A stretch of DNA of 64,000 nucleotides, taken from Halolamina sp. CBA1230. GTDB lineage: Archaea > Halobacteriota > Halobacteria > Halobacteriales > Haloferacaceae. Location of the stretch: NCBI RefSeq assembly GCF_002025255.2, contig NZ_CP054587.1, positions 186,001 to 250,000 of the forward strand. The letters run 5' to 3'. Of the stretch, positions 8,928 through 46,830 are shown piece after piece. The notes beneath the pieces are model-generated. The model was not told the origin of the DNA. It made no database searches and worked only from the letters and a program-made list of their open reading frames with translations. Numbering within the stretch: the first letter of the stretch is position 1; each line of letters begins with the position of its first letter. The translations under genes were made by a program, and so were the position numbers.

Positions 8928-9283
8928 CGCGACAGCATCTCGAGGCTAGACCACTTGCGACCGCACTGCCCCGCACAGCCCTCACACCTCCCCAGCCGAT
9001 TCGCTCGCTTTCGCTCGCTCATCCCTCGCGCGCTCGTTCGCGCACGGAGGCGCTCACGTCGCGCACCACCGCGGCTGCGGTGCGGTACGCGGTGGACGCC
9101 TCGCGCTCGCCAACGGTCGGCGAGGCGGGCGAGAGCCGCAGGCTCTCGCTGCTTCCCGCTTGCTTCGCTCGCGGGAACGCGGGGGGAGGGGTGGGGATTC
9201 CATGCTGCGCCGGGCCTCGTGCCCGGCGCCCTGCGGTCACAAGTGGTCATGCTTCGAGGCGCTGTCGCGGTCACGGTTGCTGT
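8914..9283. repeat. inverted-repeat-bounded, gene-free element
   Basis: The reverse complement of 8914-8964 and the direct sequence 9233-9283 align as GCGGTC-R-CAAGTGGTC, then NNGC-Y-TCGAG, then GCTGTCGCGGTC, with roughly four of five bases equal over about 45 bp. Between the arms lie several hairpins (including 9130-9177) and GC-skewed runs, and no frame that looks like protein. It resembles a small non-autonomous element or the remains of one. No transposase is present. Confidence 0.5.
9130..9177 (+). repeat. composite hairpin module, copy 1
   Basis: The first hairpin is CGAGAGCC (9130-9137), loop GCA, GGCTCTCG (9141-9148). It is perfect over 8 bp. After 4 bases comes a second: TTCCCGC (9153-9159), an 11-base loop TTGCTTCGCTC, then GCGGGAA (9171-9177). 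The same triloop plus 11-base-loop arrangement recurs at 42661-42708 and 46784-46830. Confidence 0.75.
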
Positions 9284-38812: not shown

Positions 38813-39612
38813 TCGAGGACGTCGCGGCCGACTGCGAGACCGTCGACGCCGAGGTCGGCGAGCACGGCGACCACGTCGCGACGGTGACGCTCAACCGTCC
38901 CGATGCGCGGAACGCGCTGAACGCCCAACTCCGAGAGGAACTCGCCGACGTGATCGACGTCGTGGAGGGGGACGAGGTGCGCGCAGTCGTGCTGACCGGC
39001 GCCGCGGAGGCCGGCGCGTTCGCCGCCGGGGCCGACGTGACCGAACTCCGGGAGCGTGACGCGCTCGAGCAGCGCGAGGCCAGCAAGCGCCCGCGAGTGT
39101 ACGAACACGTCGCGGACTGCCCGATGCCAGTGATCGCCCGGATCAACGGCCACGCGCTCGGCGGCGGCTGTGAGCTGATCCAGGCCTGTGACGTCCGGAT
39201 CGCCCACGAGGACGCCAAGATCGGCCAGCCCGAGATCACGCTCGGGATCATGCCCGGCGGCGGCGGCACCCAGCGTCTCCCCCGCCTCGTCGGCGAGGGA
39301 CAGGCGATGCGACTGATCCTCTCGGGGGAGCTGATCGACGCTGCCGAAGCCCGGGAGATCGGGCTCGTCGACGAGGTCCACGGCGACGACTTCGACGACG
39401 CGGTCGACGACCTCGCGGCGTCGATGGCGTCGAACAGCCCTGTCGCGCTCGAGTTCGCCAAGCAGTCGGTGAAAGCCGCCTCGCAGATGGGGCTGGAGGA
39501 CGGCATCGACTATGAGGCGGAGCTGTTCGCCCAGCTGTTCGCGACCGCGGACAAAAACGAGGGGATCGACGCGTTCCTCGAGGACCGCGAGCCGGAGTGG
39601 CGCGGCGAGTAG
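38809..39612 (+). CDS. enoyl-CoA hydratase
   Basis: The start is a GTG overlapping the dehydrogenase stop. The 267-residue protein has the classic crotonase pattern 'FAAGADVTELRE', 'INGHALGGGCELIQACD' and 'IGQPEITLGIMPGGGGTQRL', with catalytic Glu in 'QPE'. This distinguishes it from the PaaG-like protein at 28292. It is a PaaF-like hydratase for the beta-oxidation steps. Confidence 0.92.
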   Translation: MIEDVAADCETVDAEVGEHGDHVATVTLNRPDARNALNAQLREELADVIDVVEGDEVRAVVLTGAAEAGAFAAGADVTELRERDALEQREASKRPRVYEHVADCPMPVIARINGHALGGGCELIQACDVRIAHEDAKIGQPEITLGIMPGGGGTQRLPRLVGEGQAMRLILSGELIDAAEAREIGLVDEVHGDDFDDAVDDLAASMASNSPVALEFAKQSVKAASQMGLEDGIDYEAELFAQLFATADKNEGIDAFLEDREPEWRGE

Positions 39613-39659
39613 CGGGTACGGGCAGCATACTTTTGGCCCGACTGCCGGAACCGGTCAGC

Positions 39660-39956
39660 ATGGACGTCGAGGCGTTCTTCGAGGAGATGCCCTTCGCCGA
39701 CCTGCTGGGCGTCGAACTGACCGAGATCGACGAGGGCCACGCCGAGGGACAGGTCGAGATGCGCGAGGAACTCTCCTGGGACGAGGACGGGACGGTCGCC
39801 CACGGCGGCGTCACGTTCACGCTCGCGGACACCGTCGGCGGTGCCGCGCTCGTCTCGCTGGTCGAACAGCCGGTGCCGACGATCGACATGCGCGTCGACT
39901 TCCTCGAAGCCGGCACGGGCGATCTGACCGCCGAGGCCGGTGGTCCGACTGGGTGA
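39660..39956 (+). pseudogene. PaaI-type thioesterase, frameshifted and truncated
   Basis: The start at 39660 has a TATA-like ATACTTTT about 26-33 bases upstream. The 98-residue frame shows 'DGTVAHGGVTFTLADTVGG' (HGG loop, catalytic Asp) and 'DMRVDFLEAGTGDLTAEA', then ends in 'GGPTG'. Complete relatives have about 30-40 more residues. In the +1 frame from about 39940 the DNA reads 'VVRLGEDVGVT', just what should follow. After that the frame enters the hairpin array at 39971 and loses family resemblance. I read this as a gene broken by a frameshift and replacement of its 3' end. It is the last gene of the beta-oxidation run. Confidence 0.65.
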
Positions 39957-39970
39957 GGACGTAGGCGTCA

Positions 39971-40171
39971 CCAGAACGCTGCGCGTTCTGGTTGTCACCG
40001 GAAGCCGTCGGCTTCCGGTTGTGACCGGAAACATCGTTTCCGGTCGCCCGGGAATCTTCGATTCCCCCTGCCCGAGGGACGTAGTCCCTCAATGGCTAAC
40101 GAATCGCTACGCGATTCGTGAACGTCGTCGGCGTGTTCACCGAGGACACCCCGCCGACGCACGCGGGGTGT
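39971..40171 (+). repeat. array of six unrelated triloop hairpins plus two larger hairpins
   Basis: Six perfect hairpins, each with a 3-base loop, follow one another: 39971-39991 (9 bp, loop TGC), 39997-40019 (10 bp, GTC), 40023-40045 (10 bp, ATC), 40050-40066 (7 bp, TTC), 40074-40090 (7 bp, GTA) and 40099-40119 (9 bp, TAC). The stems differ in sequence. Two more follow: GTGAAC/GTTCAC at 40118-40140 with an 11-base loop, and a 9-bp stem at 40146-40171 with an 8-base loop. No gene is seen here. Confidence 0.88.
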
Positions 40172-40267
40172 ACAAGACTGGATAAAGTTAATAGTGCGAT
40201 ATCGAACTGTCGGGGTCGGCTGTGACTCGACAGTAGTTCTAACAGAGTAGGGCCACAGCAGTGAGCT
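40172..40267. other. gene-free gap before the phosphoesterase
   Basis: A moderately A+T-rich stretch with TAAAGTTAATAG at about 40181-40192 and TTCTAACA at about 40238-40245, either of which could be a TATA box for the gene at 40268. Nothing else was seen. Confidence 0.35.
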
Positions 40268-41203
40268 ATGCCCTCCCGACTCCTCGTGATGGGGGACAAC
40301 CACGGCGACGTCGAATCGCTCCGCCGAGTGCTCGCCGACGTCGAGGGGGAGTCGTTCGACTACGCCGTCCACGTCGGCGACTTCACGAACGCGTGGCGAA
40401 CGGCCAGGCGGACGGACGACGAAGCCGCCGCCGAACGTCTCGGGGCGGAACAGCTACGCGAGGTCGAACCGGTGCTCGCGGAGTTCGACGCGCTCGCCGA
40501 GCACGGGCTCGTGTGGGTGTACGGCAATCAGGACTACTTCGGCGACCTGCCGGAGGAGCTGTCGGTCGGGAGGGAGGTTCCGGAGGACGACGTGGTACAG
40601 GTCGGCGATCTCCGGTTCACGAACTCGCTCGATCTGGTCACGCCGGACGTGGTTCTGGTCACCCATCTGGAGTACTGGCGGCTCGGGGACCACTTCGAGG
40701 GGCTGGCCCACTTCTGCGGGAACTCCCACCGGGGTCGGCACGTCGGCGACCGACTGAACTCCGCGTTCCTGCAGGTCCGGGATCCGGAGACGGACGAGAA
40801 CCGGTTCGGGGGGTACTTCGTCGTCGAACTGGACGAATCCGGACTGGACGTCGAGATGCGGTCCGTCGGCGACCTCACGCGGATCGAGTGCGACCGCCAC
40901 CGGGAGCGCGGCGTCCAGTTCCAGCCCGACGCCCGCGGCTGTATGTTCTGCAACGAGGCGGGGACGCTGATGCGGGAGATGTGTGCGTCGGCGTTCTACG
41001 GTCTCACACGCGGCACCGATCGGGAGTCAGTCAGCGACGAGGAGCTCGTCGACTGCGCCGAGGGGCTCTGGAACGAACCCCCGACGGGGTTCCGCGAATC
41101 GTTCGCGGCCTACCTCGCGGAGCTCGAGAGCCATCGGTACGCCCCGCTCACGAGGGCCGAGGACGGATCGATCCGGCTCGCGGAGAAGAGTTACTCCTAC
41201 TGA
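40268..41203 (+). CDS. calcineurin-like metallophosphoesterase
   Basis: This 311-residue protein has the metallophosphoesterase motifs 'VMGDNHGD' (GDxHxD), 'HVGDFTN' (GDxx), 'VYGNQDYF' (GNxD), a histidine in 'VLVTHLEYW' and 'CGNSHRGRHV' as the last motif. Two metal ions and phosphoester hydrolysis are expected. A C-terminal extension of about 100 residues holds 'GCMFCNEAGTLM' (CxxC) and has no clear family. The substrate is unknown. It is convergent with the PD-(D/E)xK gene. Confidence 0.8.
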   Translation: MPSRLLVMGDNHGDVESLRRVLADVEGESFDYAVHVGDFTNAWRTARRTDDEAAAERLGAEQLREVEPVLAEFDALAEHGLVWVYGNQDYFGDLPEELSVGREVPEDDVVQVGDLRFTNSLDLVTPDVVLVTHLEYWRLGDHFEGLAHFCGNSHRGRHVGDRLNSAFLQVRDPETDENRFGGYFVVELDESGLDVEMRSVGDLTRIECDRHRERGVQFQPDARGCMFCNEAGTLMREMCASAFYGLTRGTDRESVSDEELVDCAEGLWNEPPTGFRESFAAYLAELESHRYAPLTRAEDGSIRLAEKSYSY

Positions 41204-46720: not shown

Positions 46721-46830
46721 TTTTGCTGCGGGCCCCCAGAGGGGCCCTGGCAAAAGCTCGACCAAAAGCCTCCTCACTCCCTTCGAGAGAGCGAAGCTCT
46801 CTCGTGCTCCCGCTCGCTTCGCTCGCGGGA
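46721..46830 (+). repeat. three consecutive hairpins, including composite module copy 3
   Basis: At 46721-46755 a two-step hairpin pairs TTTTGC with GCAAAA and GGGCCCC with GGGGCCC around loop CAGA. At 46784-46804 CGAGAGAGC, loop GAA, GCTCTCTCG is a perfect 9-bp triloop hairpin. After 3 bases TCCCGC (46808-46813), 11-base loop TCGCTTCGCTC, GCGGGA (46825-46830) follows. A degenerate fourth copy of the 11-base motif lies at about 46850-46868. The region is a gene-free gap of 278 bases (46676-46953). Confidence 0.82.

Follow-up and report, generated by a model that had tools for sequence, protein, structure and literature searches.

The locus considered here raises a simple question: why should six different hairpins, every one closed by exactly three bases, stand in a row in the chromosome of Halolamina sp. 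CBA1230? The window (the whole stretch of 64,000 nucleotides that was analysed) holds them at 39970-40119, and the six perfect stems with 3-base loops were confirmed where the initial annotation had placed them. Hairpin 1 (39970-39992; 10-bp stem, loop TGC; ACCAGAACGC TGC GCGTTCTGGT) is of type A, the commonest module of the family described below. It is followed by hairpin 2 (39997-40019; 10-bp stem, loop GTC; ACCGGAAGCC GTC GGCTTCCGGT), which is found again at two other loci, L002 and L003, and by hairpin 3 (40023-40045; 10-bp stem, loop ATC; GACCGGAAAC ATC GTTTCCGGTC). Two shorter stems of 7 bp come next, namely hairpin 4 (40050-40066, loop TTC; GGGAATC TTC GATTCCC) and hairpin 5 (40074-40090, loop GTA; GAGGGAC GTA GTCCCTC), the latter being present at L002 with an identical loop. 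Hairpin 6 (40099-40119; 9-bp stem, loop TAC; ACGAATCGC TAC GCGATTCGT) recurs at L003. A C-G pair closes the loop in all six. The geometry is constant while the inner stems and loops vary, as had been noticed. The stems were also called unrelated, but hairpins 1-3 have CC(A/G)GAA in common, and modules of the array are found again at other places in the genome. The two larger hairpins that had been noted after the six do not belong to the array; their right arms, GTGTTCAC and GCGGGGTGT, are coding sequence of a thioesterase gene and are present in an ortholog that has no array (L217).

The stretch 39967-40127, folded as DNA, has a minimum free energy of -55.7 kcal/mol (z = -9.6), which was equalled by none of 200 shuffles. 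To place this in context, 2.0 Mb of the same chromosome (C1:1-2000000) was scanned for triloop stems, with shuffled sequence as the control. Stems of at least 9 bp numbered 155 against 27 in the shuffled sequence, and those of at least 10 bp 92 against 9, the strongest excess among loop sizes 3 to 8. Clusters with three or more such stems were found 18 times against zero. The triloop geometry therefore belongs to a genome-wide family. Scan and fold together bear out that the array is not a product of chance, the stems being far above the rate expected from composition. CRISPR arrays consist of identical repeats with unique spacers of constant length between them. Here the palindromes differ and are separated by short linkers, so the array is not one of these. 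Nor is it a simple terminator, and a comparison of 39600-40300 with the Rfam covariance models returned nothing up to E=1. The window also has two single triloop hairpins away from the array, at 9129-9149 (GCGAGAGCC GCA) and 46784-46804 (CGAGAGAGC GAA); both are of the form C-GNA-G, and stems like theirs occur at other places in the 2 Mb.

The array breaks a decayed gene for a hotdog (4HBT) thioesterase on the plus strand (39660-40185), which matches PF03061 (E 2e-8) up to residue 93. In a sister genome the orthologous gene, L217, is intact and empty, and reads ..AEAEVVRLGEDVGVVEVGVFTEDTHVADARGVYKTG. The mosaic array of six palindromic modules (39968-40122, minus strand) adds 157 bp net, counting one CG. 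It is flanked by a direct repeat of this dinucleotide. The left CG (39966-39967) stands in the context GGCG/TC, for which L217 has a single GGCGTC, and the right CG (40123-40124) in the context GAA/CG/TCGTCGGCG, where the host sequence restarts. The thioesterase reading frame is lost through a 2-bp deletion near 39937, upstream of the array; the length of the net insertion is not divisible by 3, and the orientation of the array is opposite to that of the copies that are read in frame elsewhere, so that the family's peptide-coding orientation would here be the minus strand. Taken together, these features are consistent with a decaying gene that would no longer be under selection for its frame.

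What is inserted can be understood from the commonest unit of the family. Oriented by its linkers, it reads CG-TC-(D hairpin, GACGAGANNC NNN)-TGCCA-(A hairpin, ACCAGAANNC NNN)-GA-CG; that is, two 10-bp triloop DNA hairpins stand head to head, joined by a 5-bp linker, bounded by TC and GA and flanked by CG at either end. The linker common to the units is (T/C/A)GCCA, and the tags are on the outside. Among 83 units, most have CG or TG at the left end, followed by TC/TT. The stems are mostly of 9-10 bp, and the D stem mostly starts with G-C. Alternative stems (ACCGGAAGCC, CGAGGGAC, ACGAATCGC and others) replace or extend the common unit in mosaics, of which the window array is one. When compared with uninterrupted relatives, the net length is 57 bp, or 114 bp for tandem pairs, as measured in genes for phosphoglucomutase, isopentenyl phosphate kinase and a universal stress protein. 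Non-coding repeats give the same net lengths (57 or 114 bp); the length is thus intrinsic and does not stem from selection in genes alone.

At an empty site CG stands once, and at a filled site it stands at both ends. The flanking dinucleotides agree directly in 60 of the 83 units, and none of 5000 shuffles gave as many, a test weakened in that common descent of a TG/TG subfamily could account for part of the agreement. An outer stem uniting both hairpins as a three-way junction was considered and dropped, as T stands opposite G at the inner position in most units and the direct repeat already accounts for the outer CG/CG pairing. The units sit in genes, in the ends of IS1341-type elements, inside another dispersed repeat and beside further units, the last of which gives rise to mosaic arrays. 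The other repeat, GGTGGACGCCTCGCG-hairpin-CGCGGGGGGAGGGG, has 27 copies in C1:1-2000000 (for example at L009, near 10497), mostly outside called genes. It has a covarying GC-rich hairpin of its own, its flanks are long and conserved, and two-hairpin units of the main family lie beside or inside it.

The first hairpin type, searched as a degenerate pattern, was found at 58 places in the genome, and the reversed control pattern at one. The exact 25-bp pattern occurs at 77 loci among 84,980 species; all genus-named records are haloarchaeal, and one metagenome-assembled genome is labelled only Euryarchaeota. This distribution over twelve genera was ascertained on one stem sequence, and the counts are lower bounds. 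In a sample of the phylum, the pattern was present in 29 of the 81 genomes from the window's own order and in 0 of 312 others, with zero control matches. The copy number peaks in the window's genus, with 24 in the window's genome and 51 in another Halolamina genome. Eleven plasmids, all from haloarchaeal genera, have pattern matches, and the viral (IMG/VR) and phage collections have none. It is therefore probable that the window array is a cluster of haloarchaea-specific, REP-like miniature mobile palindromes. Their mobility is suggested by the empty sites and the dispersal, that is, by presence and absence between species.

How such units would move is a separate matter. They might derive from IS200/IS605-type elements, like the PATEs and SMR-A repeats of Haloquadratum, and be moved by a Y1 tyrosine transposase, whose single-strand mechanism the hairpins would suit. 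At L129 and L185, the end palindrome of IS1341-type elements (TTGACATCCTCCCCGCCCTAAAGGGCG..GAGGATTCC) does enclose a unit, as CCGCCCTAAAGGGCG/../CGAGGATTCC; such cases come from several genera, and L119, L144, L151, L153 and L170 offer similar contexts. Units can thus travel with these elements. SMR-A (HqIRS42, 43 and 55) is characterised in PMC3119063 as about 110 bp long, with terminal inverted repeats and over 95% likeness within a type; its mobilisation is termed "enigmatic" by the authors, and no target duplication is reported. According to the same account, SMR-A repeats target the same place, the near-terminal palindromes of IS605-type elements, as is the case at L129 and L185; like the present units, they are haloarchaeal, short and without a transposase. 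In contrast, the units described here are 57 bp net with a doubled CG, and in-frame copies are not among the features given there for SMR-A. The Haloquadratum plasmid PL47, checked as a possible source of SMR-A, has no such hairpins. The origin from IS200/IS605-type elements is also difficult to reconcile with two genomes (G006 and G050) that have units but no Y1 match, and with a third (G002, 17 type-A hairpins) in which the Y1 matches are only partial. Furthermore, IS605-type elements make no target duplication (PMC3119063), whereas CG is doubled at the units. This derivation is hence unlikely. As a mobiliser judged by presence and absence, the Y1 transposase showed no correlation with the units, and no pair of elements bracketing a transposase gene was seen among the clusters in 2 Mb.

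Some copies of the REP-like palindromes lie inside protein genes. Coding was called with a home-made codon model, for which this genome was the training set; a copy counted only if its two flanks were coding and the frame stayed open across the element. All 28 oriented coding copies, from about 23 genes, use one strand and one frame, which reads about VDESRRLSSANQNASRSGD. Over the six frames, 79, 70, 3, 64, 62 and 67 of the 83 units are open; since five of the six are mostly open, stops cannot account for the use of a single frame. Only 5 of 26 clusters of the type-A hairpin in 2 Mb are inside called genes, though 78% of the sequence is called coding. The peptide of one frame is hydrophilic and 19 residues long, and 57 is a multiple of 3; copies so oriented thus persist in working genes. 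From this we infer that purifying selection would leave the hydrophilic frame in genes. Some of the insertions are young: at the first site in a HAD hydrolase gene, the six other Halolamina genomes have no interruption, and a methyltransferase gene is contiguous in four. Others persist, as the insertion site in an SDR-family gene is common to two genera. For a UspA protein (PF00582) that carries its insert, AlphaFold2 gives residues 31-46 as a coil with pLDDT below 50 between a helix (12-29) and a strand (50-58), and the insert is modelled as a disordered loop. The unit-encoded peptide was found in no solved structure. The initial annotation, partly supported as a whole, had overlooked the membership of the array in one family, the interruption of the thioesterase gene and the presence of the same modules in frame in intact protein genes.

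The stems covary strongly. Two-sided changes numbered 130 against 38 in shuffles, with 97.9% of cells paired, and the SDR site alone provides three compensated pairs (CGTGAATCGG against CGAAAATCGC). It had been proposed that folding is kept in RNA or in single-stranded DNA. In the D stem, which was not fixed by the search patterns, there are 4 G-T pairs and 13 A-C mismatches; selection for pairing in RNA should leave the reverse. A C-G pair closes the loop in 79 of the 83 D hairpins. The sequence GNA or TNC is present in 59 of the 83 D loops and 56 of the 83 A loops, about 70% overall, as against 7-12% in the genome's triloops with 6-7-bp stems. The C(GNA)G sequence is an ultra-stable DNA minihairpin (PMC4686876). 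With such loops closed by C-G, the fixed 3-base loop can be read as a step of folding in single-stranded DNA, through which the units, judging by their sequences, would have to pass at some point. Of the two earlier proposals, the data hence favour single-stranded DNA and not RNA structure. It was also considered that the hairpins might be RNA elements (terminators, attenuators or processing sites) maintained by selection on RNA structure, for which the strong folding and the location of most copies outside called genes could be cited. Apart from the scarcity of G-T pairs relative to A-C, the lack of any Rfam match up to E=1, the copies in many unrelated genes in one frame and the opposite orientations outside genes make this most unlikely.

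In contrast to the stems, the loops change fast. At one orthologous site (7 sequences), differences amount to 0.64 in the A loop and 0.41 in the D loop against 0.07-0.08 in the flanks, and in 56 orthologous-like pairs the loop identity is 0.35 while that of the flanks is near 0.88. Inversion of the loop was tried as a source of this change; it occurs in 6 of 56 pairs, which is no enrichment over the expected share of about 9%. It is possible that the tips open and are refilled, or that they are converted from other copies. That the palindromes form locally without any mobility, through template switching that perfects near-palindromes, would fit stems that stay complementary while loops change at orthologous sites, but identical stems and linkers at unrelated sites in many genera exclude it as the sole origin, and with filled and empty sites differing by whole unit lengths it is hardly credible. 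Template switching may nevertheless be active after insertion.

For the REP-like mobile palindromes, the following course can be envisaged. The units would move or be copied as folded single-stranded DNA, by means of their C-GNA-G minihairpins, and a putative trans-acting enzyme would mobilise them. If a copy must fold perfectly to be propagated or restored, the stems would covary while the loops drift. In genes, purifying selection would then leave only the tolerated frame. The family would then be parasitic DNA for the most part, from which proteins at times gain flexible loops.

REP and REPIN sequences with their RAYT transposase are known for a GTAG tag, paired hairpins in opposite orientation and mosaic clusters. 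The haloarchaeal units likewise show paired opposite hairpins and mosaic clusters. However, they have no GTAG tag, their flanks being CG-TC and GA-CG, and no unit-flanked transposase gene was seen in the examined sequence. The initial annotation knew of no named element of this form, yet related ones exist in bacteria, namely the CGTC-tagged REPs and the Rickettsia palindromic elements. The CGTC-tagged superfamily (Di Nocera et al. 2013, PMC3733652) includes dRS3 of Neisseria and RPE-4/RPE-6 of Rickettsia conorii. Its members have been described only in bacteria and have loops of 4-5 bases and stems of 8-9 bp with A-T first pairs, and no transposase is known for these palindromes (PMC3733652). 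A CGTC (or TGTC/CCTC) tag at the palindrome end is a rule that the haloarchaeal units follow. Head-to-head dimers with a CCA-type tail are common to both, the units here being CGTC-D-TGCCA-A-GACG, as are scattered copies, the lack of a dedicated transposase gene and some in-frame copies. In these respects the haloarchaeal units work like CGTC-tagged REPs. They are not filed as members, because their loops and stems depart from the rules: the loops have 3 bases, and the stems are mostly of 9-10 bp. They also differ in their stem sequences, their frequent clusters and their restriction to haloarchaea.

The Rickettsia palindromic elements are likewise palindromic DNA in frame in unrelated protein genes with intact homologs that lack the insert. 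These inserts are probably translated and measure about 150 bp in the first family (PMC10969869, PMC3733652). By their description they differ in being bacterial and of other sequence, whereas the haloarchaeal unit has 57 bp, two hairpins and CG on both sides. No earlier description of the haloarchaeal family was found in the open-access literature that was searched. Selfish palindromes that survive in genes through a compatible length and one translatable frame are known above all from Rickettsia, and the family would bring them to archaea. Tentatively, and as a rather doubtful extension, it could represent a lineage-wide archaeal mobile system, with a C(GNA)G minihairpin as its unit, an enzyme of a type new to palindromic repeats, insertion at CG, tips reopened and rewritten in place, and a stock of in-frame peptide inserts. 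With empty and filled orthologous sites, a 2-bp signature and tractable haloarchaea, both the mobiliser of CGTC-type palindromes and the effects of the inserts on protein function become testable.

For annotation, it matters that loops encoded by the units resemble lineage-specific protein insertions. At four loci from three genera (L113, L146, L156 and L167), a small protein has its C-terminus encoded by a unit, and directly downstream is a gene starting MPRALIDTTVLFAA; the two look like a VapB-VapC pair. All four loci have the same D hairpin, but each has its own A loop. At L281 of H. salifodinae, two near-identical arrays of tandem units are separated by about 970 bp, which hints at a local duplication or conversion, and one of them is in frame within what is probably a gene for an FtsJ-like methyltransferase (..VVDLVISDMAPNMT..).
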